The notes below the pieces were generated by a model. It saw only the letters and a list, made by a program, of their open reading frames with translations, did no database searches and was not told where the DNA came from. Shown here in pieces: positions 1,240-16,542 of a stretch of DNA of 22,941 nucleotides (positions within the stretch are counted from its first letter, which is position 1; each line of letters opens with the position of its first letter). Source of the stretch: Lachnospiraceae bacterium (lineage in GTDB: Bacteria > Bacillota_A > Clostridia > Lachnospirales > Lachnospiraceae); the NCBI GenBank assembly GCA_017652545.1, contig JAGCAV010000398.1, positions 1-22,941 of the forward strand. The letters are read 5' to 3'. Both the position numbers and the translations under genes were made by a program.

Positions 1240-1244
1240 AAGAG

Positions 1245-1320
1245 GGTGGAGTTTGGAGAGTTGAGAGTGGAGCTGCTGGAGAGTTAAGAGTTGAGAGTGG
1301 AGCTGCTGGAGAGCTGAGAG
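1245..1320 (+). repeat. Purine-rich heptameric repeat, locus A (ppk-ispG junction)
   Basis: The gap consists almost wholly of degenerate GAGTTGA/GAGTGGA heptads. A 27-nt segment is perfectly duplicated at 1257-1283 and 1287-1313 (period 30), with a third degenerate start at 1317. The first part (GTGGAGTTTGGAG, 1246-1258) is shared with locus B before alr. The final GGAG at 1308-1311 lies 9 nt before the ispG ATG and is the only plausible Shine-Dalgarno sequence, so the repeat seems to double as the ribosome-binding site. Confidence 0.8.
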
Positions 1321-2385
1321 ATGCTGATTACAAGAGATAAGACCCGTGAGGTTGCGATCGGAAACTGCCGGATCGGAGGGGGCAACCCCATCCGCATTCA
1401 GTCCATGACAAACACCAGAACAGAAGATGTTCAGGCGACTGTCAGCCAGATTCTTGCGCTGGAAAAAGCCGGCTGCGAGATCATCCGCTGCGCCGTCCCA
1501 ACCATGGAGGCGGCACAGGCACTCTCTCAGATCCGGGAACACATCCGGATCCCGCTGGTGGCGGACATCCATTTTGATTACAGGCTTGCCATCGCGGCTA
1601 TGGAGAACGGGGCCGATAAGATCCGGATCAATCCGGGAAACATCGGTTCCCGGGACCGGATCAGAAGTGTGGTCAGCTGCGCGAAGGAAAGGGAGATCCC
1701 CATCCGCGTAGGCGTCAACAGCGGCTCGCTTGAGAAGGAACTGGTCGAAAAGTACGGCGGCGTCACGGCGGAGGGCCTGGTGGAATCCGCCCTCGAAAAG
1801 ACCGCGCTCATTGAGGATATGGGCTATGACAACCTTGTCATCAGTATCAAGTCTTCAGATGTCCTCATGTGTGCAAGGGCGCACGAGCTGATCGCAGAAA
1901 AGACGGATCATCCGCTGCATGTGGGGATCACGGAAGCCGGAACGATCACCTCCGGCAACATCAAATCAGCCATCGGCCTGGCACTGATCCTCTCAAAGGG
2001 AATCGGGGACACCATCCGCGTATCGCTGACGGGAGACCCGGTGGAGGAAGTGCGCTCCGCGAAGCTGATCCTGCGTACACTCGGACTTCGGAAAGGCGGG
2101 ATCGAGGTCGTGTCCTGCCCGACCTGCGGCCGCACGCAGATCGATCTGATCGGCCTGGCAAACCGGGTGGAGGAGATGGTTGCGGACATTCCGCTGGACG
2201 GCGTTAAGGTGGCCGTGATGGGCTGCGTGGTCAACGGACCCGGGGAAGCAAAGGAAGCGGATGTGGGAATCGCGGGAGGCAAGGGGACCGGCCTGCTGAT
2301 CAGGCACGGCGAGGTGGTGAAAACGCTGCCGGAGAGCGAGCTTCTCGAGGCGCTGCGCTCGGAGCTGCTGGCGATGATGCGCTGA
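1321..2385 (+). CDS. ispG: 4-hydroxy-3-methylbut-2-enyl diphosphate synthase (flavodoxin/ferredoxin type)
   Basis: IspG (GcpE) reductively opens the MEcPP ring to HMBPP, the next-to-last step of the MEP isoprenoid pathway, using a [4Fe-4S] cluster. The 354-residue product has the compact bacterial length. An N-terminal TIM-barrel begins with IRIQSMTNT (25-33) and includes ADIHFDYRLA; the C-terminal cluster domain carries Cys266 and Cys269 (SCPTCGRT), Cys302 and Glu309 (GCVVNGPGEA), matching the three Cys plus one Glu that ligate the cluster in E. coli. The ATG at 1321 follows repeat locus A directly. In many Clostridia ispG sits in a dxr-rseP-ispG-polC order; here polC follows as expected but ppk replaces the upstream partners, with the repeat exactly at that junction. 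Confident call. Confidence 0.97.
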   Translation: MLITRDKTREVAIGNCRIGGGNPIRIQSMTNTRTEDVQATVSQILALEKAGCEIIRCAVPTMEAAQALSQIREHIRIPLVADIHFDYRLAIAAMENGADKIRINPGNIGSRDRIRSVVSCAKEREIPIRVGVNSGSLEKELVEKYGGVTAEGLVESALEKTALIEDMGYDNLVISIKSSDVLMCARAHELIAEKTDHPLHVGITEAGTITSGNIKSAIGLALILSKGIGDTIRVSLTGDPVEEVRSAKLILRTLGLRKGGIEVVSCPTCGRTQIDLIGLANRVEEMVADIPLDGVKVAVMGCVVNGPGEAKEADVGIAGGKGTGLLIRHGEVVKTLPESELLEALRSELLAMMR

Positions 2386-2420
2386 AACGATGCCCCACAT
2401 GCACAGAACGGATCATTGTG

Positions 2421-2426
2421 AAAGGA
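2421..2426 (+). promoter_or_regulatory. Shine-Dalgarno deciding the polC start
   Basis: AAAGGA lies 7 nt before the ATG at 2434 but only 1 nt before an in-frame TTG at 2428. The spacing supports 2434 as the start, two codons shorter than the longest open frame. Confidence 0.75.
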
Positions 2427-2433
2427 ATTGTCC

Positions 2434-5400
2434 ATGAGCCTTACCTTCAGGGAAGTATTCCCGGACATCCAGATAGATGAATCGATACGCGGACTGCTGG
2501 ATCAGTCCGCTGTTTCTCGTGTGACCATGAACGAGAGCCAGACTGTCATGACCGTTTATCTGGAATGCGACCGGCTGATTCACAGGGAGATCTTTGACCA
2601 TGTGGAGGAAATGATCCGGTCCCAGCTGTTTCCGGGACAGGCGGTCACGGTCAGGATCGTGGAAAAGTTCCGCCTCTCCGGCCAGTACAGCGCCCGTACG
2701 CTGATGCCGCTGTACAGGGACAGTATCTTTTATGAGCTGAGGAAATACGACAGGATCCTGTACAGTGTCCTGCACTCCGCATCGATGGATTTTACGGATG
2801 ACGATTCGCTGAAGCTGACGATTCCGGAAGGAAGCATCACCGACGCGGTGAGCCGTGAACTGACAGGGATTCTGGAGAAGATCTTTACGCAGCGCTGCGG
2901 CCAGGACCTGAAGCTTGACCTTGTATTCCGGAACGAAAAAGAGGAGAGCGAGAGGAAACGCCTGACAAAGAAACGCCTGAGACAGGAAGTCGCCCTGGTG
3001 ACGGAAAGGGCTGTCATTCACGAACAGGCGGAGAACGGCGATGATGTGCTCGGAGCACCTGCAAAGGAACGTTCCGTGAAAAATACGAAAGAAACAGGGA
3101 AGCAGAAGGACTCCGGCAAGGCTGTGGTCTCTCTGAAAGATCACAATTCGAAAAAAGCAGCGGATCCATGGCCGGGGAAAAAACCGGTTTCAGACGATCC
3201 GGATATGATCTTCGGAAGGAATTTTGATAATGAGGAGATCGCCATAGACAGGATCGTGGGTGAGATGGGAGAAGTCACGGTCCGCGGCCAGATCCGCGAG
3301 ATCGACTTCCGCCAGATCAAAAACGAAAAGACGATCGTGATCATGGAGGTCACTGACTTTACGGATACCATAGCAGTCAAGCTTTTTGTCTCGAACGAGC
3401 AGGCGGAGGAACTGAAACCGAAGCTGAAGAAGGGAGCCTTTGTCCGGATCCTGGGCGTGACCAATATCGACCGGTTCGATTCCCAGCTGACCATCGGGTC
3501 CGTCAGGGGAATCAAAAAGATCGCCGACTGGCGCACGCCCAGAATGGATACCTGGCCTGAAAAGCGTGTGGAGCTGCACTGCCATACCAAAATGAGCGAC
3601 ATGGATGGCGTCAGTGAGGTGAAGGACCTGATCAAATGTGCCATGAACTGGGGACATGAAGCCCTGGCCATCACGGATCACGGTGTGGTCCAGGCCTTTA
3701 CGGATGCGAACCATGCGGTTCCTCATGACAGCCCCTTCAAGATCCTGTACGGATGTGAGGGCTATCTGGTCGATGACGAGAGGGAGCTGGCGACGGGTTC
3801 GAAGGGGCAGAAGCTGACTGGCGACTTTGTGGTGTTTGATCTGGAGACCACCGGTTTCTCTCCGGTGAACAACGCGATCATCGAGATCGGAGCCGTGAAG
3901 GTGACAAACGGGAAAGTGACAGACCGCTTTTCCACTTTTGTGAACCCCAAAGTGCCCATTCCCTACCGGATCGAACAGCTCACCGGCATCAGTGACCAGA
4001 TGGTGATGGAGGCGCCGGCCATCGAAGAGATCCTTCCCACATTCCTTGCCTTCAGCGAGGGCTGTGTGATGGTGGCGCACAACGCTTCCTTTGACATGAG
4101 CTTCATCAGGGAGAACTGCGCCAGGCTGGGACTTGAATGCCCGCAGACCTATGTGGATACCGTCGGCCTGGCCAGAGTCCTGCTGCCGCAGCTGAGCCGG
4201 TTCAAGCTGGATACGGTGGCGAAAGCGCTGAGCGTCCACCTGGGAAATCACCACCGCGCTGTGGACGACGCGGAGTGCACAGCCCGGATCTTTGAAAAAA
4301 TGATCACCCGGCTCGAACAGCGGGATGTGTATGACCTGGATCAGATGAATGCGCTGGGGAAGGCTTCCGTGGACCAGATCCGCAAGCTTCCTGCTTACCA
4401 CATTATCCTGCTTGCGAAGAATGATGTGGGCAGGGTGAACCTGTACCGCCTCGTGTCTGAATCGCATCTGCGGTATTTCAACAGATATCCGAGGATTCCC
4501 AGAAGCCTGCTGACCAGGTACCGGGAAGGGCTGATCATCGGTTCGGCCTGTGAAGCGGGAGAGCTTTTCCAGGCGATCGTAAGAGGCGCACCGCAGCAGG
4601 AACTTTCCAGGATCGCGTCATACTATGACTATCTGGAGATCCAGCCCATCGGCAACAACATGTTCATGACGCGGGATGAAAAAGACCCGAAGACTGTGGA
4701 GGAGCTGAAGGACTTCAACCGGCAGATCGTCAGTCTGGGGGAACGCCTCGGCAAACCTGTCTGCGCGACCTGTGACGTTCATTTTCTGAATCCGGAGGAT
4801 TCCGTCTACCGTCAGATCATCATGACCGGAAAGGGGTTTGCCGACGCGAATGAGCAGGCGCCTCTGTTCCTTCGCACGACGGAGGAGATGCTGAAGGAAT
4901 TTGATTATCTCGGAGAGGAGAAGGCCAGGGAAGTGGTCATCACCAACACGGTGAAGATCGCCCGGATGTGCGAGCGGATCGCACCGGTCCGTCCCGACAA
5001 ATGTCCGCCCGTCATTGAGAATTCGGACCAGATCCTGACCGAACTTTGTTATACAAAGGCGCATGAGATCTACGGGGAACAGCTCCCGGAGGTGGTCTCG
5101 GAACGTCTGGAAAGAGAACTGAACTCCATCATCAGCAACGGCTTCGCGGTGATGTACATCATCGCCCAGAAACTGGTGTGGAAATCCAACGCGGACGGCT
5201 ATCTGGTGGGATCGCGCGGTTCCGTAGGCTCGTCGTTCGTTGCCACGATGGCCGGGATCACGGAGGTCAATCCTCTAAGCCCCCATTATATCTGCCCGTC
5301 CTGCCACTACTGCGATTTTGATTCGCCGGAAGTGAAAAAGTATGCGGGCATGGCCGGCTGCGACATGCCGGACAAGGTCTGTCCGAACTGCGGGAAGCCG

Positions 5401-6897
5401 CTGAAGAAGGAAGGATTTGATATTCCCTTTGAGACTTTCCTGGGATTTAAGGGGAACAAGGAGCCCGATATTGACCTGAACTTTTCGGGTGAATATCAGA
5501 GTAAGGCGCATAAATACACAGAGGTGATCTTCGGTGCCGGACAGGCTTTCCGGGCCGGTACGATCGGTACGCTGGCGGACAAGACGGCGTACGGCTTTGT
5601 CAAGAAATTCTATGAGGAACAGGGCATCCACAAACGGCCGTGTGAGATCAACCGGATCGTATCCGGCTGTGTGGGGGTGCGGCGGACCACCGGGCAGCAT
5701 CCCGGCGGGATCATTGTGCTGCCCTACGGGGAGGATATCTGTACGTTCACACCCGTCCAGCATCCTGCCAATGACACCGAGACGGATATCATTACGACGC
5801 ACTTTGATTATCACTCCATCGATCATAACCTGCTCAAGCTGGACATTCTCGGACACGATGATCCGACGATGATCCGCATGCTGGAGGATCTGACAGGCCT
5901 GAATGCCCGGGAGATCCCCCTGGACGACAGGCAGGTCATGAGCCTGTTCCAGAATACGGAGGCGCTGGGGATCACGCCGAAGCAGATCGGCGGCTGTCCG
6001 ACCGGGTCTCTGGGCATTCCGGAGTTCGGCACGGAGTTTGCGATCCAGATGCTTGTGGATGCAAAACCAAGATATTTCTCGGACCTGGTGAGGATCTCGG
6101 GCCTGTCCCACGGAACGGACGTGTGGCTCGGAAACGCCCAGACCCTGATCCAGGAGGGCAAGGCCACCATTTCCACAGCCATCTGTACCCGTGACGATAT
6201 CATGATCTACCTGATCGAGAAAGGGATGGACAAGGAACTGTCATTTACGATCATGGAGAGCGTCCGGAAGGGCAAAGGCTTAAAGCCCGAGTGGGAAGAG
6301 CAGATGACCGCGCACGGCGTGCCGGACTGGTATATCTGGTCCTGCAAGAAGATCAAATACATGTTCCCGAAAGCCCATGCGGCGGCTTACGTCATGATGG
6401 CCTGGCGTATCGCCTGGTTCAAGATCAACCGGCCGCTGGCCTATTACGCGGCGTATTTTTCCATCCGCGCATCCGGATTTAACTATGAGCTGATGTGCCT
6501 CGGAAAAGAGAGACTGCTGATGCACATGCATGACTATGAGAAGCGGATGGACTCCCTGACCAATAAGGAGCAGGATGAGTACAAGGATATGAAGAGCGTA
6601 CTGGAGATGTATGAGCGCGGATATGAATTCACGCCCATCGACATTTACCGGGCCAGCGCCAACCGTTTCACGATCTCGGACGGCAAACTCATGCCGGCGC
6701 TTTCCTCCATCGGCGGGATGGGTGAGAAGGCCGCCATGGGCATTGTGGAGGCAGCCAGGGACGGACAGTTCCTGTCCAGGGATGACTTCCGCGAGCGCTC
6801 CAGGGTCAGCAAGTCCATCGTGGACCTGATGGGGGACCTGGGGCTGCTGAAGGGGCTGCCGGAGTCAAATCAGATGTCGCTGTTTGATCTGATGTAG
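2434..6897 (+). CDS. polC: DNA polymerase III PolC-type, alpha subunit with 3'-5' exonuclease
   Basis: PolC is the main replicative polymerase of low-GC Gram-positive bacteria, with built-in proofreading. The 1487-residue product is close to the family length. Domains in order: N-terminal region (1-~230), a charged Lys/Glu linker, an OB-fold (about 280-370), and a PHP domain beginning with ELHCHTKMSD (His382, His384). Within the PHP domain the DEDD exonuclease is inserted (DLETTG with Asp469/Glu471; VAHNASFD; NHHRAVDDAE). Then come a Cys zinc module (Cys954, 957, 983, 986) and the palm with PDIDLNFSG (Asp1012, Asp1014) and KLDILGHDD (Asp1137). The extreme C-terminus, QMSLF at 1480-1484, resembles the beta-clamp binding motif. 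The start is set by AAAGGA 7 nt upstream of ATG 2434. The 48-nt gap after ispG shows no promoter, so cotranscription is likely. The gene ends 5 nt from the convergent ABC-F stop. Confidence 0.98.
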   Translation: MSLTFREVFPDIQIDESIRGLLDQSAVSRVTMNESQTVMTVYLECDRLIHREIFDHVEEMIRSQLFPGQAVTVRIVEKFRLSGQYSARTLMPLYRDSIFYELRKYDRILYSVLHSASMDFTDDDSLKLTIPEGSITDAVSRELTGILEKIFTQRCGQDLKLDLVFRNEKEESERKRLTKKRLRQEVALVTERAVIHEQAENGDDVLGAPAKERSVKNTKETGKQKDSGKAVVSLKDHNSKKAADPWPGKKPVSDDPDMIFGRNFDNEEIAIDRIVGEMGEVTVRGQIREIDFRQIKNEKTIVIMEVTDFTDTIAVKLFVSNEQAEELKPKLKKGAFVRILGVTNIDRFDSQLTIGSVRGIKKIADWRTPRMDTWPEKRVELHCHTKMSDMDGVSEVKDLIKCAMNWGHEALAITDHGVVQAFTDANHAVPHDSPFKILYGCEGYLVDDERELATGSKGQKLTGDFVVFDLETTGFSPVNNAIIEIGAVKVTNGKVTDRFSTFVNPKVPIPYRIEQLTGISDQMVMEAPAIEEILPTFLAFSEGCVMVAHNASFDMSFIRENCARLGLECPQTYVDTVGLARVLLPQLSRFKLDTVAKALSVHLGNHHRAVDDAECTARIFEKMITRLEQRDVYDLDQMNALGKASVDQIRKLPAYHIILLAKNDVGRVNLYRLVSESHLRYFNRYPRIPRSLLTRYREGLIIGSACEAGELFQAIVRGAPQQELSRIASYYDYLEIQPIGNNMFMTRDEKDPKTVEELKDFNRQIVSLGERLGKPVCATCDVHFLNPEDSVYRQIIMTGKGFADANEQAPLFLRTTEEMLKEFDYLGEEKAREVVITNTVKIARMCERIAPVRPDKCPPVIENSDQILTELCYTKAHEIYGEQLPEVVSERLERELNSIISNGFAVMYIIAQKLVWKSNADGYLVGSRGSVGSSFVATMAGITEVNPLSPHYICPSCHYCDFDSPEVKKYAGMAGCDMPDKVCPNCGKPLKKEGFDIPFETFLGFKGNKEPDIDLNFSGEYQSKAHKYTEVIFGAGQAFRAGTIGTLADKTAYGFVKKFYEEQGIHKRPCEINRIVSGCVGVRRTTGQHPGGIIVLPYGEDICTFTPVQHPANDTETDIITTHFDYHSIDHNLLKLDILGHDDPTMIRMLEDLTGLNAREIPLDDRQVMSLFQNTEALGITPKQIGGCPTGSLGIPEFGTEFAIQMLVDAKPRYFSDLVRISGLSHGTDVWLGNAQTLIQEGKATISTAICTRDDIMIYLIEKGMDKELSFTIMESVRKGKGLKPEWEEQMTAHGVPDWYIWSCKKIKYMFPKAHAAAYVMMAWRIAWFKINRPLAYYAAYFSIRASGFNYELMCLGKERLLMHMHDYEKRMDSLTNKEQDEYKDMKSVLEMYERGYEFTPIDIYRASANRFTISDGKLMPALSSIGGMGEKAAMGIVEAARDGQFLSRDDFRERSRVSKSIVDLMGDLGLLKGLPESNQMSLFDLM

Positions 6898-6902
6898 TTT
6901 GT

Positions 6903-8852
6903 TTACTCTGCCAGTTCTTCCCACAGCGAATAGAGTTCCTCGAGCTCCTGCGCGATCTGCGCCTTGCGCGTGGTAAGAGCCAGAACCTTTTCATTGTCGG
7001 TAAAAATAACCTCGTCCTGGAGCTGCTCATCGATCCGGGCATCCTCCGCCTCAAGCGACGCGATCTCTTCTTCCGTGGCTGCGAGGCGGGCGGCGCGCCT
7101 GCGGGAAAGAGCCAGCTCCTCTTTTCGCATAGCCCATTCATCCCGGGACCCGGTGCGCAGCGGGGCGTCATCAGGCTGATCGCCGCGCAGCGTTGCACTG
7201 CCTGTGCCTGTGCCGCGCTCCGGCAGCTTCTCCTGCGCTGAGAGCGCCTGCTCCTTTTTCTCCAGATAGTAATCGTAATTTCCGTAGTAGACGGTGAGAT
7301 CCCTTCCGGAAAGCTCGAGGATCCGCTGCGCGGTCCGGTTGATGAAATACCGGTCATGGGAGACATACAGGACCGTGCCGGTGTAGAGCGTCAGCGCGTT
7401 TTCCAGTATTTCCCTTGAGAACATGTCCAGATGGTTGGTCGGCTCATCCAGGATCAGGAAATTGGCCTTGGAAAGCATGAGCTTGGCCAGGGACAGCCTG
7501 CCGCGCTCGCCGCCGCTGATGTCCCGGACACGCTTGTAGACATCGTCCCCCGTAAAGAGAAACGCTGCCAGTGTGTTGCGGATCTGCGTGTTTGTCATCT
7601 CCGGCCGCTCGTCGCTGATCTCGTCAAAGAGCGTCTTGTCGGGATGCAGGACCTGGTGGTCCTGGTCATAGTAGCCGATCATGACGTTCGCGCCCAGCGT
7701 GAAGGAACCGGAATCCGCTTCCACAAGACCGTTCAGGATCTTCAGGATGGTCGTCTTGCCGGTTCCGTTGTCGCCGATGAGGGCGATCCGCTCGCCGCGG
7801 CGGACGGAAAAGCTCAGATCGGAAAACAGGACCAGGTCATCAAAGCGTTTGGAGAGATGGCTGACATCCAGCACATCTTTGCCGCTCTGCACAGCCGGCT
7901 CAAAAGCCAGGTGCATCTGCGTGTCCGCGGTAGTGGGGCGGTCCAGCACGTCCATTTTGCTGAGCATCTTTTCACGGCTCTCCGCCCGTTTGATGGATTT
8001 CTCGCGGTTGAATGACCGCAGCTTTTCGATGACCTCTTCCTGGTGCCGGATCTCGGCCTGCTGCTTCAGCCAGGCTTTCATGGCAGCATCGGTAATGTCT
8101 TTTTTCTTTGCCGCATAATCCGTATAATTGCCGGAGAAGGACATGACCCGGCCCTGATCGATCTCAATGACTTTGGTGACGACCTTGTCCAGGAAATACC
8201 TGTCATGCGCAACGATCAGGACGCTGCCTTTGTAAAGGGAAAGGTAGTTTTCCAGCCAGGCGATGGAGCTCATGTCCAGGTGGTTGGTCGGCTCGTCGAG
8301 AAGAAGCACGTCCGGAGAGGACAGAAGAAGCCTTCCGAGAGCGACCCGTGTTTTCTGACCGCCGGACAGATCGGATGTATTCCTGTAAAAGTCTTCCTCT
8401 TCAAAACCGAGTCCTTTCAGAACGCCCGTGATCTCGCTCTGGAGGGCATAGCCGTTATGCTGCTCGAACCACTCGTTTAAGGTATGGTACTGCTCCATGG
8501 CGGAACGAAGCGATTCCCCGGAAAGATCCTTCATGCTGTTTTCCAGGTCACGCAGCCGCTGCTCGGCGTCAGAGACATCCCGCTTTGCTTCCAGGAGTTC
8601 TTCCCAGATCGTGCCGTTCCCGATCAGCATCTGCTGCTGGGCCAGGTATCCGACAGAAGCGCCTTTTGCAAGGATGACGGAGCCTTCATCAGGCGCAAGC
8701 TCACCCACGATGATCTTCATGAATGTGGACTTTCCGGCCCCATTGATTCCGACCAGGGCAGCCTTCTCGTGATCACCCAGTGTAAAGGAGGCATCCTGAA
8801 GGATTATTTTTTCTGAGAATGATTTGCTGATGCTGTGGCATGAAAGTATCAT
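6903..8852 (-). CDS. ABC-F family ATPase, YdiF/Uup-like (ribosome-associated)
   Basis: ABC-F proteins are soluble twin ATPases that act on the ribosome (stall relief, assembly or antibiotic protection) rather than on transport. The 649-residue product has two nucleotide-binding domains. NBD1 has Walker A GINGAGKST (35-43), signature LSGGQ (162-166) and DEPTNHLD with catalytic Glu187. The charged P-site linker spans about 245-320. NBD2 has GDNGTGKTT (360-368), ISGGE (445-449), Glu470 and a SHDRYF switch. A Glu/Arg-rich coiled coil spans about 570-645. No membrane segment is present. The ATG at 8852 fits the family N-terminus (MILSCHSISKSF); an in-frame GTG at 8915 would add 21 unrelated residues and lies upstream of the predicted transcription start. 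AAGGA precedes the ATG by 11 nt, rather far. A ydiF-type gene near rex also occurs in B. subtilis, which favours a housekeeping role over acquired resistance; substrate unknown. Confidence 0.93.
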   Translation of the reverse strand: MILSCHSISKSFSEKIILQDASFTLGDHEKAALVGINGAGKSTFMKIIVGELAPDEGSVILAKGASVGYLAQQQMLIGNGTIWEELLEAKRDVSDAEQRLRDLENSMKDLSGESLRSAMEQYHTLNEWFEQHNGYALQSEITGVLKGLGFEEEDFYRNTSDLSGGQKTRVALGRLLLSSPDVLLLDEPTNHLDMSSIAWLENYLSLYKGSVLIVAHDRYFLDKVVTKVIEIDQGRVMSFSGNYTDYAAKKKDITDAAMKAWLKQQAEIRHQEEVIEKLRSFNREKSIKRAESREKMLSKMDVLDRPTTADTQMHLAFEPAVQSGKDVLDVSHLSKRFDDLVLFSDLSFSVRRGERIALIGDNGTGKTTILKILNGLVEADSGSFTLGANVMIGYYDQDHQVLHPDKTLFDEISDERPEMTNTQIRNTLAAFLFTGDDVYKRVRDISGGERGRLSLAKLMLSKANFLILDEPTNHLDMFSREILENALTLYTGTVLYVSHDRYFINRTAQRILELSGRDLTVYYGNYDYYLEKKEQALSAQEKLPERGTGTGSATLRGDQPDDAPLRTGSRDEWAMRKEELALSRRRAARLAATEEEIASLEAEDARIDEQLQDEVIFTDNEKVLALTTRKAQIAQELEELYSLWEELAE

Positions 8853-8897
8853 AGGGTAATGGTTCCTTCTTTTGCGGCCGGGAATGGAACTCGGCGT

Positions 8898-8926: not shown

Positions 8927-8946
8927 CTTTTTTAGTCAGAAAACAA
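8919..8946 (-). promoter_or_regulatory. Divergent promoter of the ABC-F gene, overlapping the rex -10
   Basis: On the - strand a perfect TATAAT occupies 8919-8924, with TTGTTT (about 8941-8946) 16 nt upstream as a weaker -35. The predicted transcript starts near 8912 and has a leader of about 60 nt before ATG 8852. The -10 box shares four base pairs with the rex -10 box, so the two promoters cannot both be occupied. Confidence 0.65.
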
Positions 8947-8964
8947 TCGGTGCAGGAGAAAGAT

Positions 8965-9609
8965 ATGATTCAAAGAAACATTTCCAGGGCCGTTATCGCC
9001 AGACTGCCCAGGTACTACAGATATCTGGGAAACCTGCTGGATGAAAAGGTGGAGAGGATCTCTTCGGGCGAACTGAGCAAGCGGATGCACGTGACAGCTT
9101 CCCAGATCAGGCAGGACCTGAACAACTTCGGCGGGTTCGGCCAGCAGGGTTATGGCTACAACGTGAAATATCTCTACAATGAGATCGGAAAGCTGCTCGG
9201 GCTGGAAGAAACCTACAATATGATCATCATCGGGGCCGGCAACCTGGGCCAGGCGCTTGCCAACTATGTGCGCTTTGAAAAGCGGGGCTTCAGGATCATC
9301 AGCCTTTTCGATGCGGATCCTTCCAAGGAAGGAACCATCATCAGGGATGCGCTTGTAAGAAATGTAGATGAGCTTGCGTCTTTCCTTGATGAGCACCAGG
9401 TCGATATTGCGGCTTTCACCCTGCCGGCAGCCGGCGCAGCCAAAGTCTGCCCGATTGTCGTGGAGCACGGTGTCCCGGCGATCTGGAATTTCGCCCATAC
9501 GGATCTGGACGTGCCCGAAGATGTGATCGTGGAAAATGTTCATCTGTCGGAGAGCCTGATGCAGCTTTCATACCGGCTGCACACATCAAGGGAAGGGCAG
9601 GACAGGTAA
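8965..9609 (+). CDS. rex: Redox-sensing transcriptional repressor Rex
   Basis: Rex is a dimeric repressor that senses the NADH/NAD+ ratio and releases fermentation and respiration genes when NADH is high. The 214-residue product has the family length: an N-terminal winged helix (about 1-80, with the recognition region VTASQIRQDLNNFGGFG at 43-59) and a Rossmann domain with GAGNLG (90-95) and an acidic strand end FDADP (115-119), followed by a C-terminal swapped helix. ATG 8965 is chosen because AGGAG sits 6 nt upstream and the longer open frame to 8905 begins upstream of the predicted transcription start. The gene has its own strong promoter; autoregulation is common in the family, but I see no clean TTGTGA-type palindrome. 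Divergent from the ABC-F gene and followed by alr in the same direction. Confidence 0.97.
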   Translation: MIQRNISRAVIARLPRYYRYLGNLLDEKVERISSGELSKRMHVTASQIRQDLNNFGGFGQQGYGYNVKYLYNEIGKLLGLEETYNMIIIGAGNLGQALANYVRFEKRGFRIISLFDADPSKEGTIIRDALVRNVDELASFLDEHQVDIAAFTLPAAGAAKVCPIVVEHGVPAIWNFAHTDLDVPEDVIVENVHLSESLMQLSYRLHTSREGQDR

Positions 9610-9614
9610 AAGGA

Positions 9615-9641
9615 CTCTGCCGGTCAGACAGACCGGAAGAG
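9615..9641 (+). other. Hairpin between rex and alr
   Basis: CCGGTC (9620-9625) pairs with GACCGG (9631-9636) around a 5-nt loop; after one G/A mismatch the stem extends with CTCT/AGAG. No U-tract follows, so it is not a standard intrinsic terminator. It may stabilise the rex 3' end or attenuate readthrough into alr. Its right arm is also the start of repeat locus B. Confidence 0.55.
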
Positions 9642-9660
9642 TGGAGTTTGGAGCGTGGAG
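9631..9660 (+). repeat. Purine-rich repeat, locus B (rex-alr junction)
   Basis: This copy begins GACCGGAAGAGTGGAGTTT. The same 19 nt, with one substitution, starts locus D before icd (16509-16527). It then continues GGAGCGTGGAG. GGAG at 9657-9660 lies 6 nt before the ATG at 9667 and GGAG at 9643-9646 lies 8 nt before an alternative GTG at 9655, so the repeat supplies the alr ribosome-binding site whichever start is used. Confidence 0.7.
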
Positions 9661-9666
9661 CAGCAG

Positions 9667-10815
9667 ATGCAGCAGATGAATGAGAGAATACCGGATCGCG
9701 TCTGTGCCTGGATAGACCTGGACGCGGTCAGACAGAATTTTGATGTGATGCGCCGCCTGATCCCTCCCGGCACAAATATGTGCGCGGTGATCAAGACCGA
9801 CGCGTACGGCCATGGCGCCGTCCCGATCGCCCGGATGATGGAAGAAGAGCCGTACATCTGGGGATTTGCGGTCGCAGCGGTGGAGGAAGCCGCCGCGCTG
9901 CGCGAAGCCGGGATCCGCAAACCGATCCTGATCCTCGGCTATGTTTTCCCCGGGGACTATGAGACGCTGGCCCGCCTGTCGGTAAGACCCGCTGTGTTTA
10001 CGGAGGAGATGGCACTGGCGCTGGATCAGGCCGCCGCAAAGGAACAGACGGTTCTGCCGGTCCACATTGCGCTGGATACAGGCATGAGCCGGATCGGTTT
10101 CCTTCCGGGAGAGGAAGCGCTGGAACAGGTGGTCAGGATCAGTTCGCTGCCGCACCTGCGCCTGGAAGGCATGTTTACCCACTTTGCCCGGGCAGACGAG
10201 GTCGACAAGACGATCGCGAAGGAAGCGCTTGAGAAATACCTGGATTTTGAAGAAGGGCTGGAAAGGAAGGGCGTGACCATTCCCATCCGGCACTGCGCCA
10301 ACTCGGCAGCAATTCTGGAACTTCCGGAGGCGCACCTGAACATGGTCAGGGCCGGGATCACCATCTACGGCATCTATCCGTCCGAGGAGATGCGGCGTGA
10401 CAAGGACCTGAAGCCTGTTATGCAGCTTAAGAGCCATGTGGCCCATGTAAAGACGGTTCCTGCGGGAACACCGGTCAGCTACGGCGGGACCTTTGTGACA
10501 TCCCGGCAGACCCGGATCGCCACCATACCCGTCGGCTATGGAGACGGCTATCCGCGGTCCCTGAGCAACAGGGGATATGTGCTGATCGGCGGGAAAAAAG
10601 CGCCGATCCTCGGAAGGGTCTGCATGGATCAGTTCATGGTGGATGTCACAGGCATGGATGTGAAAACGGGCGACGAAGTGACGCTGATGGGATATGACCA
10701 CGGGGTGCTTCTGTCCGTGGAAGAGCTGGGAGCTCTTTCGGGCCGTTTTCCGTACGAATTCGTATGTGACATCAGCCCCCGGGTCAGACGGGTCTATATC
10801 GGAGTGGAGTTATAA
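9667..10815 (+). CDS. alr: Alanine racemase (PLP-dependent)
   Basis: Alr interconverts L- and D-alanine for peptidoglycan. The product of about 382 residues is typical. The N-terminal TIM barrel carries the PLP lysine in AVIKTDAYGHG (Lys43), the THFARAD and MVRAGITIYG motifs, and the C-terminal beta domain supplies the second catalytic base in VSYGGTF (Tyr272) followed by RIATIPVGYGDGYPR and GRVCMDQFMVDVT. Start is ambiguous: ATG 9667 has GGAG 6 nt upstream and is preferred; GTG 9655 and ATG 9676 are in frame. The last four codons (Gly-Val-Glu-Leu) and the TAA are identical to the first 15 nt of repeat array C, so the natural C-terminus seems to have been replaced or tagged by the repeat. Probably cotranscribed with rex unless the 9615-9641 hairpin stops transcription. 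Confidence 0.96.
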   Translation: MQQMNERIPDRVCAWIDLDAVRQNFDVMRRLIPPGTNMCAVIKTDAYGHGAVPIARMMEEEPYIWGFAVAAVEEAAALREAGIRKPILILGYVFPGDYETLARLSVRPAVFTEEMALALDQAAAKEQTVLPVHIALDTGMSRIGFLPGEEALEQVVRISSLPHLRLEGMFTHFARADEVDKTIAKEALEKYLDFEEGLERKGVTIPIRHCANSAAILELPEAHLNMVRAGITIYGIYPSEEMRRDKDLKPVMQLKSHVAHVKTVPAGTPVSYGGTFVTSRQTRIATIPVGYGDGYPRSLSNRGYVLIGGKKAPILGRVCMDQFMVDVTGMDVKTGDEVTLMGYDHGVLLSVEELGALSGRFPYEFVCDISPRVRRVYIGVEL

Positions 10816-10970
10816 ATCCGGAGTGGAGTTTTGAGAGTGAAGAGTGGAGTTATAGATTCAGAGTTGAGTTTTGAGAGTTGAGAGTGGAGTTATAAAATCC
10901 AGAGTTGAGTTTTGAGGGTTGAGAGTGGAGTTATAAATCCGGAGTGGAGTTTTGAGAGTGAAGAGTGTTT
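10801..10970 (+). repeat. Tandem ~40-nt purine-rich repeat array, locus C (alr-yebC junction)
   Basis: Four head-to-tail units lie at 10802-10841 (40 nt), 10842-10881 (40), 10882-10922 (41) and 10923-10962 (40), plus a truncated fifth. Units 1 and 4 are identical over 45 nt (10802-10846 versus 10923-10967). Each unit has two related halves, GAGTGGAGTTATAAATCC and GAG(T/G)GGAGTTTTGAGAG-like, built on a 7-nt GAGTTGA theme. The + strand is almost free of C. There are no spacers, so it is not CRISPR, and stop codons in TTATAA exclude a repeat protein. The first unit overlaps the end of alr. Between the array and yebC, 10971-11013 holds only an AT-rich stretch and a separate AGGAG. Confidence 0.9.
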
Positions 10971-11013
10971 GGAAGATTCAACCTCAGAAGAATAACATAT
11001 AAAGGAGAGTTTT

Positions 11014-11745
11014 ATGTCAGGACATTCCAAATTTGCCAATATCAAGCACAAAAAGGAAAAGAATGATGCCGCGAAGGGAAAGATCTTTACGATCATCGGC
11101 CGTGAGATCGCCATTGCCGTCAAGGAAGGCGGCCCGGATCCCGCGAACAACAGCAAGCTTCGCGATGTGATCGCCAAGGCGAAATCCAACAACATGCCCA
11201 ATGATACCATCGACAGAGGCATCAAGAAGGCTGCCGGAGATCTGGGATCTGTCAACTATGAGCGTGTCACGTACGAAGGATACGGACCTTCCGGAATCGC
11301 CATCATCGTCGAGGCGCTGACGGACAACAGGAACAGGACATCCGCCAATGTCAGGAGCGCTTTCACCAAGGGAAGCGGAAACATCGGCACCCAGGGCTGC
11401 GTGTCCTACATGTTTGACCGGAAGGGGCAGATCATCATCGACAAGGAAGAGTATGAGACCGATCCGGATGAGCTGATGATGGTGGTGCTCGACGCCGGCG
11501 CGGAGGACTTCTCCGAGGAGGAGGACAGCTATGAGATCCTGACCGACCCGGATGAGCTGAGCGCGGTGCGTGAGAAGCTGGAGGCGCAGGGCATTCCCAT
11601 GGCTTCCGCGGAAGTAGCCATGATCCCGCAGAACTATGTCGCCCTGACAGATGAGAACGACCTGAAGCAGCTGAACAGAACGCTGGACCTGCTGGACGAC
11701 GATGATGATGTGCAGGCCGTATATACCAACCTGGAGGAGTCATAA
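11014..11745 (+). CDS. YebC/PmpR (TACO1) family protein
   Basis: The 243-residue product has the standard family size and N-terminus (MSGHSKFANIKHKKEKNDAAKGKIF), followed by the three-domain YebC fold with KAKSNNMPNDTIDRGIKK and YEGYGPSGIAIIVEALTDNRNRT. The C-terminus is very acidic (LLDDDDDVQAVY). The family was long annotated as a transcriptional regulator; work on bacterial YebC2 and mitochondrial TACO1 supports a role in translation of proline-rich stretches. Which subgroup this belongs to cannot be settled by eye. AGGAG at 11003-11007 is 6 nt before the ATG. The following gene starts 3 nt after the stop, implying coupling. Annotated by sequence similarity to the family; role inferred. 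Confidence 0.93.
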   Translation: MSGHSKFANIKHKKEKNDAAKGKIFTIIGREIAIAVKEGGPDPANNSKLRDVIAKAKSNNMPNDTIDRGIKKAAGDLGSVNYERVTYEGYGPSGIAIIVEALTDNRNRTSANVRSAFTKGSGNIGTQGCVSYMFDRKGQIIIDKEEYETDPDELMMVVLDAGAEDFSEEEDSYEILTDPDELSAVREKLEAQGIPMASAEVAMIPQNYVALTDENDLKQLNRTLDLLDDDDDVQAVYTNLEES

Positions 11746-11748
11746 TCA

Positions 11749-12525
11749 ATGGATCAGAACCATTATCTGAGAGCAACCGAGGTCCTTTCACGAGTATTTG
11801 AGAGCGCGTCTGTCTCCATGGACGCGTTCGGAAGAAAAACCTACAAGGGTAATTTTGAACAGACGTATCATGCGCTGGTGCCGGCTTTTGATTCCATCGA
11901 GGAACTCTATAAGACCGTGGGCGATCCGCAGGCGATGCTGGAGAACATGGCAAAGGTCGTGACAGACCAGGCGCTCGCCAGGGTCGAGGAGTGCCCCCGG
12001 AGAGGCGCGAAGGAATCGGCGAAGATGAACCTGAACATGCAGCTGGCTGTTTTCCTGTTCCCGGCGATCCTCAACTATCACGGGGAGAGTTCAAAACCGC
12101 TGGCGGATGCCGTCGCAAAGGCATGGAAAGAAGCCTTCCCGAAGTCCAATGTGTCCATGGCTGATTATGAGACCATTGAGAAGGGCTTCCACAGGCGCTT
12201 CTGCTACATCACCACAGCTGTATGCGAGAATACGGGACTTGGTGATGACTGCTATGAACTCAATCTTCTGCGCGCCTACCGTGACGGATATCTGAGCCAT
12301 CTGGAAAACGGGCATGAGATGATCAGCACCTATTACGATGTGGCGCCGAGCATTGTCAAGCACATTGACGCAAGATCCGACAGTGCAGCGATTTATGCGG
12401 GGATCTGGAAGGACCACATCCGACCGTGCATCGGGCTGATCGAGCAGGGAGAGAACGAGGCCTGTGCCCGCCGTTACATGGCCATGGTATCCGAGCTGAA
12501 AGATAAATATTTCCTGCCCTCATAA
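11749..12525 (+). CDS. Conserved hypothetical protein with a CYITTAxC...DDCYEL cysteine motif
   Basis: I do not recognise a named function. The 258-residue, soluble, mainly helical product (no signal peptide or membrane segment) has a C-terminal region with CYITTAVC (Cys152, Cys159), then DDCYELNLLRAYRDGYL (Cys168), YYDVAPSIVKHID and a terminal IWKDHIRPCI...EACARRYM (Cys227, Cys239). The same Cys-Thr-Thr-Ala/Asp-Asp-Cys/Leu-Arg-x-x-Arg-Asp pattern recurs, to my knowledge, at the C-terminus of many uncharacterised clostridial proteins and recalls the so-called CFI-box (CFIATA...LRxFRD). The clustered cysteines suggest metal binding or a redox pair, but this is inference. GGAGGAG inside the end of the YebC gene is 9 nt before the ATG, so the two genes are almost certainly cotranscribed and coupled. 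Confidence 0.85.
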   Translation: MDQNHYLRATEVLSRVFESASVSMDAFGRKTYKGNFEQTYHALVPAFDSIEELYKTVGDPQAMLENMAKVVTDQALARVEECPRRGAKESAKMNLNMQLAVFLFPAILNYHGESSKPLADAVAKAWKEAFPKSNVSMADYETIEKGFHRRFCYITTAVCENTGLGDDCYELNLLRAYRDGYLSHLENGHEMISTYYDVAPSIVKHIDARSDSAAIYAGIWKDHIRPCIGLIEQGENEACARRYMAMVSELKDKYFLPS

Positions 12526-12569
12526 GGCGAATCCGGATAAAACGGAAAGCATTTTATTGGAGATACAAT

Positions 12570-13445
12570 ATGACATTACTGCAATCGGTGTTTCTGGGCA
12601 TTATCCAGGGACTGACGGAATTCCTGCCTGTGAGCAGTTCCGGTCACCTGGCGATTGTGCAGAATCTTTTTCATGTAGATACCGGGGATTCGGTCCTTTT
12701 TGACATCCTGCTGCATCTGGGCACCCTGGCGGTGGTCTTCATCGTCTTCAGGCGTGACATCCTGATGCTGATCCGGGCTTTTTTCGGCATGATCGGCGAT
12801 ATGTTCGCAAACATCGGGATCTCACGTTCCAACGCCCGGAACAAAGAACAGAAACCGCTGCGCAGGATCGTAAAGACCAACTACAGAAAATTCGCGGTGC
12901 TGGTGATCGTGGCTACCATACCGACAGCCATCATCGGCTTTGCCGGAAAAAAACTGGTCTCGGATGCTTCCTCCACACTTCTTGTGCCGGGGATCCTTCT
13001 GCTGGTCACAGGCGTGCTGCTTTTTCTCTCTGACAGGGCGAAGAACTGTGTGAAGATCCCGCAGGACATAACATACCGGGAAGGCCTCATCGTGGGCATC
13101 GCCCAGGGCTTCGCGACACTGCCGGGACTTTCCAGATCGGGCAGCACGATCACGGCAGCCCTGATGTGCGGGTTTGACAGGATGTTCGCGGTGAAATACT
13201 CATTCATCCTTTCGATCCCTGCGATCCTCGGCGCGGCCGTGCTGGAGATCAAGGACGTGGCCTGGGGGAGCGTCAGCGCATCGCAGATCGGAATCTATGC
13301 GGCAGGCGTTCTCTGTGCGGGCATCGTGGGATACATATGCATCCGCTTTATGCTGATGATCGTGCGGAAGCGGAAACTGAAGTACATTGCATTCTACTGC
13401 TTTGCGATCGGGGCGGTCGCGATCGCAGCGCATTTTTTCATGTAG
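12570..13445 (+). CDS. uppP: Undecaprenyl-diphosphatase (BacA/UppP family)
   Basis: UppP removes a phosphate from undecaprenyl diphosphate at the membrane, recycling the lipid carrier for cell wall synthesis and giving bacitracin tolerance. The 291-residue product is a polytopic membrane protein with about eight hydrophobic segments. The first signature is QGLTEFLPVSSSGH (Q13, Glu17, Ser22-24, His26), the second is PGLSRSGST (185-193, catalytic-type Arg189). A basic loop around 84-107 (ISRSNARNKEQKPLRRIVK) is somewhat longer than in E. coli. GGAG 7 nt before ATG 12570 fixes the start. The 44-nt gap upstream has no promoter or repeat, so it may belong to the yebC transcript. Confidence 0.96.
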   Translation: MTLLQSVFLGIIQGLTEFLPVSSSGHLAIVQNLFHVDTGDSVLFDILLHLGTLAVVFIVFRRDILMLIRAFFGMIGDMFANIGISRSNARNKEQKPLRRIVKTNYRKFAVLVIVATIPTAIIGFAGKKLVSDASSTLLVPGILLLVTGVLLFLSDRAKNCVKIPQDITYREGLIVGIAQGFATLPGLSRSGSTITAALMCGFDRMFAVKYSFILSIPAILGAAVLEIKDVAWGSVSASQIGIYAAGVLCAGIVGYICIRFMLMIVRKRKLKYIAFYCFAIGAVAIAAHFFM

Positions 13446-13495
13446 GAAATTCTTTCGCATGTGCTTTGATTCAGGGGAAATTGTAAGGGGTATAT

Positions 13496-16400
13496 ATGGC
13501 AGATAAAAAGAACCGGGGCAGGACCGGCGGAGGTTCGCCCTCTGCCGCGAGGCGGAAGTCAGGAACCGGAACCGTCAAAAAGACGGGTAAAGGCGGCAGC
13601 ACCCGCTCGTTGGGAAGCACCGCCATGAAAAGCTCTTCCGGACAGAAAGGCACGGGGACCGGAAGAAGCGCCGCATCCGCGCGTTCAGGCAGCATCAGGA
13701 AGACAGCCGCGCAGGCGCGCAGGCGTACGGATGAAAAAAGTGCCGTCACAATCGTGAAGAAGGAATACATCGACTACTCACTGGCGTGGGAGATCGCCAT
13801 GTGGGTAGTTATTGCGCTGTCAGCAATTCTGTTTATCAGCACTCTCGGACTGGGCGGTAAGCTGGGGAGGGTCTTTGAGGCGGTCAGCTTCGGGCTTTTC
13901 GGAGTGATGGCATACATTTTCCCGTTTGCGCTGTTTCTGATCGCATCCTTTTTCATTTCAAATCATGCCAGCAGGCTCGGCAAGATCAAAACACTCGGAT
14001 GGGTCCTCCTGTTTGTGACCCTTTGCGGGCTCATGCAGCTGATTCTTGTCGGATATAACAGTGACTATATCCTCAGGGAATTCTATGAGGCCAGCGCCCT
14101 GTACAGGACCGGCGGCGGTCTGGTCGGCGGAGCGATGACCCTCTTCTTCGGATCCGGGGTCGGTGTTGTGGGCACATACATCGTTTACGTGATGATGCTC
14201 ATCATCAGCCTGATCCTGATCACCCAGAAATCGCTTGTTTCCGGGATGAAACGGGGCAGCTCGGCGATTGCGCGGTCCGCCAGGAACGGGAAGAACCGTT
14301 CGCTTGAGGCCTTCAGGCAGTTCTGGAAGGCAAGGGAGAACGCGCTGAGCGAGATGGGTGATTCCGACACGCTCTATGATCCGGATCAGGATGAACCCGA
14401 AAAGGCCATGGAAGAGGAGGACGGTTTTTCAGACGACTTTTCCATTCTTCCGAAAGGCCGCAGAATTGAGAACAAGGTCAGGGGCGTAACCGGCGCGACA
14501 TCGCTTTCACCGCAGATTCCGGAAAGAAGCGCAAAGGCGGATCAGGATTCCGCCGCGGCCGCGGCAGCTCCCGAACCCGCGAAAAAAGCGGCATCCGCGA
14601 AAGAAGCGGTATCCGTGAAAGAAGCGGCATCTGCCAAAGAAGCGGCAGCCGGCGATGATGATATCTTTGACGAAGGCTTCACGATCAGGGGACTGGAAAA
14701 GAAGAAGATCTCTGCAGGGGATATCTTCCTGGACAAGCCGGATCTGCAGCGGACATCATCTTCCGGTACTGTCGCCAGGACGAAGCCGGCAGGCGCGCCT
14801 CCAAAGGAACCGACACAGAAGGAGATGCTCGAAGCTGCCCGCAAGGCGGATGAGATGATGGGGAAGACGGCATCCTCCGAAAGCAGGGAGAGTGCAGGGT
14901 CTCAGACCGGCGGAGCCGCTCAGGCTCCGGGCAGAACCGAAAGCACCGGAAAGAAGAAACAGGTCTCCCAGGGAGAGATTGAAGAGGGAATCCGCTCCGT
15001 GGCCGGAGAGATCGCCCAGGGAAGCACGCAGGTCATCAGGGAGTATCATTTCCCGAACACGCAGCTGCTGGCGGACAACAGGGGCGTAAACAACGGCACA
15101 ACGGAGGAGGAACTGAGGGAGACGGCAGCGAAGCTGGCGCAGGTGTTCAGAACCTTCGGCGTAAATGTGAAGATCACAAATGTGACGTGCGGTCCTTCCG
15201 TGACGCGCTATGAACTGACGCCGGAAATGGGCGTAAAAGTCAGCAGGATCGTCGCACTGCAGGATGACATCAAGCTGAACCTTGCGGTTACGGACATCCG
15301 GATCGAGGCGCCGATCCCCGGCAAGGCGGCGGTGGGCATCGAGGTGCCCAACAGGAAGCCGAGCGGTGTGTACCTCCGGGAACTCCTCGAATCGGATACG
15401 TTTAAAAAGCATAAATCGAACCTGGCTTATGTGGTGGGCAAGGACATCGGCGGAAACATCATTGTATCGGACATCGCCAGGATGCCGCATCTGCTGATCG
15501 CCGGTTCCACGGGATCAGGCAAATCGGTCTTTATCAATACGCTGATCATGAGCATCCTGTTCAAGGCAAAGCCTGAAGACGTCAAGCTGATCATGATCGA
15601 TCCCAAGGTCGTGGAGCTCTCCGTGTATAACGGGATCCCGCATCTGTTCATTCCTGTGGTCACCGATCCGAAGAAGGCAGCCGGTGCCCTGAACTGGGCA
15701 GTGGCGGAGATGATGGCCCGCTATCAGAAATTCGCGGAGACGGGTGTCAGGGACCTGAAGGGATACAATGCCAGGATCGATTCCCTGGGCGATGATGTCC
15801 CGCCCGAGACAAAGCCCGAAAAGCTTCCGCAGATCGTGATCATCGTGGATGAGCTGGCTGACCTGATGATGGTGGCAAGCTCTGAAGTGGAAGACGCCAT
15901 CTGCCGTCTTGCCCAGCTGGCCAGAGCTGCCGGCATCCACCTGGTGATCGCTACCCAGCGTCCTTCTGTTGATGTCATTACAGGCCTGATCAAGGCCAAC
16001 ATGCCGTCCAGGATCGCGTTTGCCGTATCCTCCGGTGTTGACTCCCGGACCATCCTTGACCAGGTCGGTGCTGAAAAGCTGCTCGGCAACGGTGATATGT
16101 TCTTCTCGCCGCAGACCTACAAGCAGCCGCTGCGTGTACAGGGCGCCTATGTCTCTGACAAGGAGGTGGCGGATGTGGTCGCTTTCCTGAAAGAGCAGAC
16201 CGGAGATGAAGCAGCCCAGCAGCAGCTGGCGCAGCGCATGGAAGAGGTGGCGAAAAATGTCCAGGCTGCCGCAGCCGGCGGCGGTGAGGACAGGGACGAG
16301 CTTTTTGAACAGGCAGGCCGCTTCATCATTGAGAAGGACAAGGCTTCGATCGGCATGCTGCAGCGCTGGTTCAAGATCGGCTTCAACCGTGCTGCCCGGA

Positions 16401-16510
16401 TCATGGACCAGCTGTGTGACGCCGGCGTGGTCGGACCCGAGGAAGGCACAAAGCCCAGAAGGGTCGAGATGAGCATGGAGCAGTTCGAAACATTCCTGGA
16501 GGAGAACTGA
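13496..16510 (+). CDS. ftsK: DNA translocase FtsK/SpoIIIE family
   Basis: FtsK/SpoIIIE is a membrane-anchored hexameric pump that moves chromosomal DNA through the septum. At 1004 residues it is clearly longer than B. subtilis SpoIIIE (about 790). An N-terminal basic, Gly/Ser/Arg/Lys-rich tail of about 85 residues precedes four or so membrane segments (about 97-117, 130-155, 166-186, 208-243). A long acidic and Ala/Lys-rich linker (about 250-500) includes hexapeptide repeats. The motor has an alpha region from about 520, Walker A GSTGSGKS (670-677), Walker B IVIIVDELAD (Asp785) and ATQRPSVDVITG. The C-terminal winged-helix gamma domain (about 935-1000, KASIGMLQRWFKIGFNRAARIMDQL) reads orienting DNA sequences. 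AAGGGG 5 nt before the ATG supports the start. Septal versus sporulation role cannot be told from sequence. Confidence 0.95.
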   Translation: MADKKNRGRTGGGSPSAARRKSGTGTVKKTGKGGSTRSLGSTAMKSSSGQKGTGTGRSAASARSGSIRKTAAQARRRTDEKSAVTIVKKEYIDYSLAWEIAMWVVIALSAILFISTLGLGGKLGRVFEAVSFGLFGVMAYIFPFALFLIASFFISNHASRLGKIKTLGWVLLFVTLCGLMQLILVGYNSDYILREFYEASALYRTGGGLVGGAMTLFFGSGVGVVGTYIVYVMMLIISLILITQKSLVSGMKRGSSAIARSARNGKNRSLEAFRQFWKARENALSEMGDSDTLYDPDQDEPEKAMEEEDGFSDDFSILPKGRRIENKVRGVTGATSLSPQIPERSAKADQDSAAAAAAPEPAKKAASAKEAVSVKEAASAKEAAAGDDDIFDEGFTIRGLEKKKISAGDIFLDKPDLQRTSSSGTVARTKPAGAPPKEPTQKEMLEAARKADEMMGKTASSESRESAGSQTGGAAQAPGRTESTGKKKQVSQGEIEEGIRSVAGEIAQGSTQVIREYHFPNTQLLADNRGVNNGTTEEELRETAAKLAQVFRTFGVNVKITNVTCGPSVTRYELTPEMGVKVSRIVALQDDIKLNLAVTDIRIEAPIPGKAAVGIEVPNRKPSGVYLRELLESDTFKKHKSNLAYVVGKDIGGNIIVSDIARMPHLLIAGSTGSGKSVFINTLIMSILFKAKPEDVKLIMIDPKVVELSVYNGIPHLFIPVVTDPKKAAGALNWAVAEMMARYQKFAETGVRDLKGYNARIDSLGDDVPPETKPEKLPQIVIIVDELADLMMVASSEVEDAICRLAQLARAAGIHLVIATQRPSVDVITGLIKANMPSRIAFAVSSGVDSRTILDQVGAEKLLGNGDMFFSPQTYKQPLRVQGAYVSDKEVADVVAFLKEQTGDEAAQQQLAQRMEEVAKNVQAAAAGGGEDRDELFEQAGRFIIEKDKASIGMLQRWFKIGFNRAARIMDQLCDAGVVGPEEGTKPRRVEMSMEQFETFLEEN
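14591..14644 (+). repeat. 18-nt coding repeat in the FtsK linker
   Basis: Three tandem 18-nt units (14591-14608, 14609-14626, 14627-14644) of the type GCATCCGCGAAAGAAGCG encode (A/V)S(A/V)KEA hexapeptides. The units differ at only a few bases, so the expansion is probably recent. It lies in the disordered linker and should be tolerant of length change. Confidence 0.85.
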
Positions 16511-16542
16511 CCGGAAGCGTGGAGTTTTGAGAGTGGAGTTGA
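16509..16542 (+). repeat. Purine-rich repeat, locus D (ftsK-icd junction)
   Basis: The copy starts GACCGGAAGCGTGGAGTTT, overlapping the last two bases of the ftsK TGA, and continues TTGAGAGTGGAGTTGA. Its GTGGAGTTTTGAGAGTG segment (17 nt) is identical to part of the array C unit, and its first 19 nt match locus B with one change. GGAG at 16535-16538 is 5 nt before ATG 16544, so the repeat again provides the Shine-Dalgarno of the next gene. Confidence 0.75.

Follow-up and report, generated by a model that had tools for sequence, protein, structure and literature searches.

A GAGAGTK heptamer family at gene junctions of a Lachnospiraceae bacterium, with Shine-Dalgarno-like sequences inside the repeat

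Introduction

In cyanobacteria, short tandemly repeated repetitive (STRR) heptamers form intergenic tandem arrays of variable length, and we know of no role for them in supplying Shine-Dalgarno (SD) sequences. Intergenic arrays are likewise built by the GGGAATC-type heptamers of Xanthomonas and the GGGGA(T/C)T heptamers of Nostoc, which contain quadruplex-forming G-runs; near start codons, the G-rich pattern lies mostly on the non-coding strand, according to the available portions of the source (PMC4692102). In marine Beggiatoaceae, TAACTGA direct repeats are heptamers that are mostly intergenic and mostly oriented to a start codon only nucleotides away (MacGregor 2015, PMC4679880). As described in the accessible parts of that report, some of these repeats extend into the end of the preceding ORF, their distribution is patchy across distant phyla, and 7-nt indels are seen between strains; the repeats have little SD character, and canonical SDs are rare in the junctions concerned (PMC4679880).

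The family described here comes from a 22,941-nucleotide stretch of DNA, hereafter the window, from the forward strand of contig JAGCAV010000398.1 of a Lachnospiraceae bacterium. Like the Xanthomonas and Nostoc arrays, its arrays are placed near genes by position and strand. The GGGAATC-type heptamers differ from it more than TAACTGA does, and the available portions of the source discuss no SD role for them (PMC4692102).

The window and its nearest relatives

The window carries the 3' part of ppk, ispG, polC, an ABC-F-like gene on the minus strand, rex, alr and yebC, followed by a Pfam-less gene, uppP (BacA family), ftsK, icd, a Bmp/PnrA-type gene, a phosphoesterase gene and an oxidoreductase pair. 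We take a Put_DNA-bind_N and CoA_binding domain pair to mark rex, and alr is a probable label read from alanine racemase relatives. The Pfam-less gene after yebC (11749-12525) encodes a 258-residue protein without a Pfam match at 1e-8, and relatives of this protein adjoin yebC in many Lachnospiraceae loci. Within ftsK, an 18-nt tandem repeat of 4.2 copies (14577-14651) appears, by eye, to give the linker a peptide repeat resembling KEAASA.

Among 80 of 546 loci, the nearest relatives were metagenome genomes of Lachnospiraceae and Clostridiales, whose Alr is at most 66% identical. The nearest genus comprises 13 genomes, 11 of which have a full-length Alr match (59-66% identity), and none of the 98 relatives of genome G002 that were searched was closer to the window. 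Since the best genome match reaches no more than 66% in Alr, the window is distinct from the genera searched; Alr relatives at 87-100% identity were found as protein records only.

Heptamer arrays at four gene junctions

The ppk-ispG, rex-alr, alr-yebC and ftsK-icd junctions hold degenerate arrays of the heptamer GAGAGTK and its variant GAGTTTK, and the repeat is confirmed as real. All four junctions lie between co-directional genes, and the arrays are on the plus strand, which is the direction of the genes. The pattern GAGAGTGGAG, with up to one mismatch, occurs 14 times in the window, always on the plus strand and 13 times within these junctions (the sole match elsewhere is at 14888, in ftsK), compared with a mean of 2.2 and a largest count of 8 in 100 dinucleotide-preserving shuffles. 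Allowing up to four mismatches, the 20-nt core GTGGAGTTTTGAGAGTGGAG is found at 11 positions, every one on the plus strand and inside the four junctions, while 60 Markov-1 resamples gave a mean of 0.03 and a maximum of 1. The first-pass annotation of this DNA had pointed to related sequence at four junctions, and a common core at all of them, far above chance, bears this out.

The arrays differ in length and build. The ppk-ispG array (1242..1313, plus strand) begins 2-3 nt past the ppk stop and contains a second-order 30-nt unit (1.9 copies at 1257-1313 by TRF), along with a period of 7 at 1242-1302. The alr-yebC array (10801..10967, plus strand) is the longest, with 4.1 copies of a 40-nt unit (10802-10967) and a period of 7 at 10860-10930, and by translation it encodes the final alr residues, GVEL. 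Two short plus-strand arrays of about three units each complete the set, namely rex-alr (9637..9660, 28 nt past the rex stop) and ftsK-icd (16515..16540, beginning about 5 nt past the ftsK stop). As placed by the array finder, three of the four arrays start no further than 2-5 nt from the upstream stop; the distance from array end to ATG is 4-16 nt at three junctions and 46 nt at the fourth. The tandem units detected by TRF are those of a slippage minisatellite (VNTR). A MITE- or REP-like build was not seen, in that the alr-yebC RNA folds on itself without end arms common to the other copies. No array flank occurs among the 25 longest of the 56 inverted pairs in the window, as terminal inverted repeats would, and no carrier gene for a mobile element was seen in the window.

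The arrays are poor in C (3-10%), from which they had initially been expected to be unstructured. The scarcity of C stands; the lack of structure fails for the alr-yebC array, because it folds better than its own shuffles (z -4.0), and folding is neutral at ppk-ispG (z -0.1) and ftsK-icd (z +0.6). The rex-alr junction as a whole gives a z of -2.9, with a hairpin upstream of the array. This hairpin (9614-9642) is stable, its 3' arm includes the first array bases, and no T-run follows it.

Shine-Dalgarno sequences and stop codons in the arrays

Three of the arrays contain a plus-strand GGAG at working distance from the next gene. In the ppk-ispG array, GGAG at 1308-1311 is separated by 9 nt from the ispG ATG at 1321 (duplex energy -6.4); in the rex-alr array, GGAG at 9657-9660 precedes the alr ATG at 9667 by 6 nt (-6.8); and in the ftsK-icd array, GGAG at 16535-16538 is 5 nt from the icd ATG at 16544 (-5.9), or 8 nt from an alternative ATG at 16547. 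Were alr to start at its second ATG (9676), the GGAG would be 15 nt away; P0002, a near-identical recorded protein, begins at the first ATG (9667). For ispG, alr and icd, the array GGAG is the only SD at the junction, just as had been claimed for a repeat-borne GGAG 5-9 nt before these starts, and the energies of -5.9 to -6.8 fall within the range of other genes in the window (-4.5 or lower in 9 of 10 control genes, with a median near -7.2). The array SDs are therefore of ordinary strength and placed where an SD is needed. The gene yebC has a GGAG of its own outside the array (11004-11007, plus strand; 6 nt before the ATG at 11014; duplex energy -8.0), so the SD claim is true at three of the four junctions.

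A comparison with orthologous junctions lacking the repeat had been proposed at the outset, and in it the alr and icd orthologues of relatives use ordinary SDs (at or below -4.5 in 84% of 77 and 84% of 25, respectively). An SD precedes yebC in 67 of 67 orthologues, and for ispG the filter of this comparison let no orthologue through. Finally, rex and alr are adjacent in four relatives (L003, L015, L024 and L039), all with a repeat-free junction.

The arrays also contain stop codons. A pure GAGAGTT run has stops in all three sense frames and none in the antisense frames; a pure GAGAGTG run provides GGAG at every unit boundary and, likewise, no antisense stops. Within the window, the number of frames with a stop is three at alr-yebC, two at ppk-ispG, one at ftsK-icd and none at rex-alr, and since the last two arrays are without stops in two or three frames, a stop role is demonstrated at alr only. 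There, the array overlaps the end of the gene, a feature missed at first, such that the last residues, GVEL, and the plus-strand stop TAA at 10813-10815 lie, by translation, within the repeat.

Recorded proteins vary at this same point. P0004, P0005 and P0007 have no differences over 369 Alr core residues, and their tails read TGVEF, TGVEFGELRASQRVEF and TSVELES. The window arrays can encode GVEF (P 0.09 against shuffled peptides) and GVEL (P 0.04) with 12 of 12 nt matching, GVEFGEL with 20 of 21 nt (P 0.006), and the whole long tail, TGVEFGELRASQRVEF, with 33 of 45 nt (P 0.02). Neither the final six residues of the long tail (P 0.42) nor SVELES (P 0.39) does better than shuffled peptides; a repeat origin of both is likely. 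More distant proteins, P0009 to P0011 (87-70% identity), are without a GVE(L/F) tail. Such tails suggest, at the protein level and for this one junction, that the array at the end of alr changes faster than the gene itself, with single-record assembly error as a possible partial explanation.

Occurrence in other bacteria and in viral contigs

The repeat is nearly absent from the nearest genus, in whose 13 genomes the core, with up to three mismatches, matched once (a reversed control matched twice). The 17-mer GAGAGTKGAGAGTKGAG was present in 1 of 397 genomes of a family sample and 4 of 391 of a class sample, the two samples overlapping in part. Outside the window, a few Clostridia and viral contigs also contain the heptamers. 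For example, at L103/L110 an array is followed by GAGAGTGGAGGTAAACAG before an ATG, upstream of what is presumably LeuB, and at L127 GAGAGTGGAGGGTTGAAATG occurs at a gene that we take to be uvrC. This window-like layout is seen in two of the five genomes bearing GAGAGTKGAGAGTKGAG; other arrays in these genomes lie away from starts.

Some copies are identical over considerable lengths. Genome G600 and the alr-yebC array share an exact match of 21 nt, and viral contig L095 and the ppk-ispG array one of 24 nt. Exact sharing of this kind, which includes the variant GAGTTTG, argues for common descent over repeated slippage, in what are few cases from contigs chosen for their repeats. Across nine genomes of its family, G600 alone contained GAGAGTGGAGTTAT, in three copies. 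The same genome (L106/L332) has a composite repeat in which GAGAGTTGAGAGTGGAGTTATTAAAT is followed by a heptamer-like AAAATTC run, twice, about 220 nt apart. A BLAST comparison of the alr-yebC array with plasmids and phages gave no match, which is weak evidence of absence with the low-complexity filter on.

Strand and position in viral contigs

Viral contigs were scanned with eight exact patterns, and 204 loci were analysed among the matches listed, leaving out two whose matches fell inside coding sequence. Genes were called by a codon-model caller that recovers the window genes. Arrays in called genes and at divergent or convergent junctions were dropped, as were those lying over 600 nt from any called gene and those lacking an ATG, and the start was taken as the nearest in-frame ATG after the array. 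Distances to starts are consequently rough, because small genes are missed (e.g., in L168) and the nearest ATG stands in for the start. A total of 251 arrays were kept, or 210 after removal of within-cluster repeats, from 98 loci in 68 contig clusters; merging the pieces of single contigs had reduced these clusters from 75, which left the directions unchanged and weakened the p values.

The 210 co-directional arrays comprise 90 in the sense and 120 in the antisense direction (a first set of loci gave 82:82). The first-pass annotation had named random strand of genome-wide copies as an outcome that would count against it, and in the pooled viral contigs the strand is indeed random. Its related statement, that all copies follow gene direction, holds in the window at four of four arrays, which is weak alone (one-sided p = 0.06), and does not extend to viral contigs, where strand is not uniform. 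Nor was same-strand consistency within viral contigs significant (p 0.11).

Strand does vary with position. Arrays adjacent to a stop and distant from a start are mainly sense (45:9; cluster majorities 25:3, p 3e-5), those adjacent to a start and distant from a stop are mainly antisense (3:35; cluster majorities 3:18, p 0.0015), and those adjoining both show no bias by cluster (9:18; clusters 7:8). In other words, the GAG strand is found mainly at upstream stops, as it also is at three of the four window junctions, and its complement CAACTCT mainly just before starts. Generic C-poor, G-rich segments of the same contigs gave sense-to-antisense ratios of 28:13 on the stop side and 19:23 on the start side. 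By comparison with these, at the array level, the bias is therefore peculiar to the repeat on the start side (p 0.0003) and only in part on the stop side (p 0.09).

Among arrays no more than 15 nt from a start, 7 of 15 sense and 3 of 65 antisense ones have an SD at or below -4.5, compared with 39% of 667 controls. The best example of a stop-plus-SD layout is L168, in which all six called co-directional arrays are sense; three of them have an ATG 5-9 nt downstream, with SD energies of -7.1 to -11.8, and two of these three overlap the upstream stop. L138 is a near mirror of the window, with a TAACTGA-like layout, in that each of the eight co-directional arrays called there is antisense, with CAACTCT on the mRNA strand, and six of these lie 4-10 nt before an ATG without any SD. 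At L094, L130, L166 and L194, as judged by eye, a GAG-strand array after a stop is followed by a CAACTCT array before the next ATG, and the two, being complementary, could pair as a long hairpin.

SD use of the host contig

Start-proximal arrays of the GAG strand were seen only in viral contigs whose other genes use SDs. In seven clusters, every array within 15 nt of a start is sense, and the median SD energy of their control genes is -7.1; for the 22 clusters with only antisense arrays at that distance, it is -1.95 (Mann-Whitney p 0.006; three clusters have both). Weak-SD contigs, with a median above -2, account for none of the 7 and 11 of the 22 (Fisher p 0.026), and a looser measure, the fraction of strong SDs before merging, gave a p of 0.07. 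For the 200 arrays with a host estimate, sense and antisense start-proximal arrays number 0 and 40 in weak-SD, 8 and 16 in middle, and 5 and 6 in strong-SD contigs. Strong-SD contigs have 5 sense arrays near starts and 32 far from them, and 6 and 19 antisense arrays, respectively. With no sense start-proximal array in weak-SD contigs and no start enrichment in strong-SD ones, the data indicate that low-SD hosts keep the GAG strand from starts and that SD-using hosts allow it there, with no sign that it is sought.

Possible explanations

The preferred explanation, to which we give about an even chance, is that the four arrays belong to one lineage-specific heptamer family that acts as stop-plus-SD linkers, passed from junction to junction by copying and remodelled through slippage. 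Short arrays would be copied from existing ones into junctions, a step that is itself conjectural, after which slippage or unequal recombination would shift array length and give rise to the second-order 30- and 40-nt units. In gene direction, T-type units have TGA in every frame and G-type units GGAG plus GTG, whereby an array could act as a stop-plus-SD linker: it would end or follow the upstream gene and, when filling a short junction, recruit the ribosome for the next. We infer that the array SDs are used and that such use is selected for. The relatedness of the copies, their SD and stop content, the normal strength of the SDs, the variable alr tails and the near-absence of the repeat from the nearest genus all speak for linkers, as do the layout of L168 and the sense arrays at upstream stops in 25 of 28 merged viral clusters. 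On the other side, the alr-yebC array gives yebC no SD, stops are missing from two or three frames of the rex-alr and ftsK-icd arrays, the window offers only four sites, viral arrays touching both stop and start are strand-neutral, and the stop-side strand bias is partly generic.

A neutral repeat is an unlikely but credible alternative. Tolerance of insertions at junctions would let arrays spread and slip there, their SD and stop content would be a by-product of composition, and their strand would be due to chance. The pooled viral ratio (90:120), the p of only 0.06 for the window's four of four, the lack of SD gain at alr-yebC, and start-proximal sense viral arrays with SDs like those of controls (7 of 15 strong vs 39% of 667) are all compatible with neutrality, which is harder to reconcile with a strand that changes with position (3:35 next to starts vs 19:23 for generic segments, p 0.0003) and with three window junctions that are without any other SD. 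Improbable, in our view, is the original proposal of a mobile, portable translation-initiation region retained for bringing GGAG to the next gene. What survives of it is the relatedness of the copies and the sole SD at three junctions; GGAG does lie 5-9 nt from the start at three of four, the window arrays are all sense, and the control genes of all seven sense-only viral clusters use SDs (-7.1 vs -1.95 for the 22 antisense-only clusters, p 0.006). Sense orientation is not general, however, and sense arrays elsewhere lie mainly at stops rather than starts, without start enrichment even in SD-strong contigs (5 near, 32 far); moreover, yebC does without an array SD, and neither terminal inverted repeats nor a carrier gene was seen in the window. 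A portable SD is thus part of the story, and the stop-plus-SD linker fits better. For the alr-yebC array alone, its 40-nt unit could be taken as a tandem array of promoters or regulator-binding sites serving yebC, which we consider highly improbable. Two units do read TTGAGA-16-TAAAAT and TTGAGA-16-TAGATT, and yebC retains its own SD downstream of the array; yet the scanned region holds three promoter-like sites where 1.4 (sd 1.0) would be expected, one of the three lies outside the array, and the TATAAA part is absent from the other three arrays. The tandem promoter reading was accordingly no better than chance and was rejected.

It is tempting to extend the linker explanation, rather speculatively, to a two-faced linker present in viruses and bacteria of very different GC content. 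The purine strand, with stops in every frame, would close genes and, in SD-using hosts, open the next by its SD, and CAACTCT would open genes as a G-poor, non-SD leader in low-SD hosts. If so, which strand lies at a start codon would indicate how the host initiates translation, and the arrays would be seams for gene exchange. If the array SDs are used, the translation signals of ispG, alr and icd rest on a fast-changing repeat, expression could therefore shift with array length, and the family would supply naturally occurring variants with which the requirements of a start region could be tested. In the viral contigs, the strand rule ties repeat orientation to the way in which ribosomes locate starts, a link that any collection of genomes can be used to check.

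Comparison with known heptamer repeats

The cyanobacterial STRR heptamers have other units than the window family and belong to another phylum. The closest described system is that of the TAACTGA heptamers of Beggiatoaceae, as far as the available parts of the report describe it (PMC4679880). Like those repeats, the window arrays are intergenic, with a start codon 4-16 nt off at three of four junctions, and the CAACTCT complement before starts in viral contigs is nearer still to TAACTGA in layout. Unlike them, the window arrays are built from GAGAGTK and GAGTTTK units and contain GGAG, with duplex energies of -5.9 to -6.8. The GAGAGTK heptamer was not found named as a bacterial repeat in the available text of the literature matches listed.
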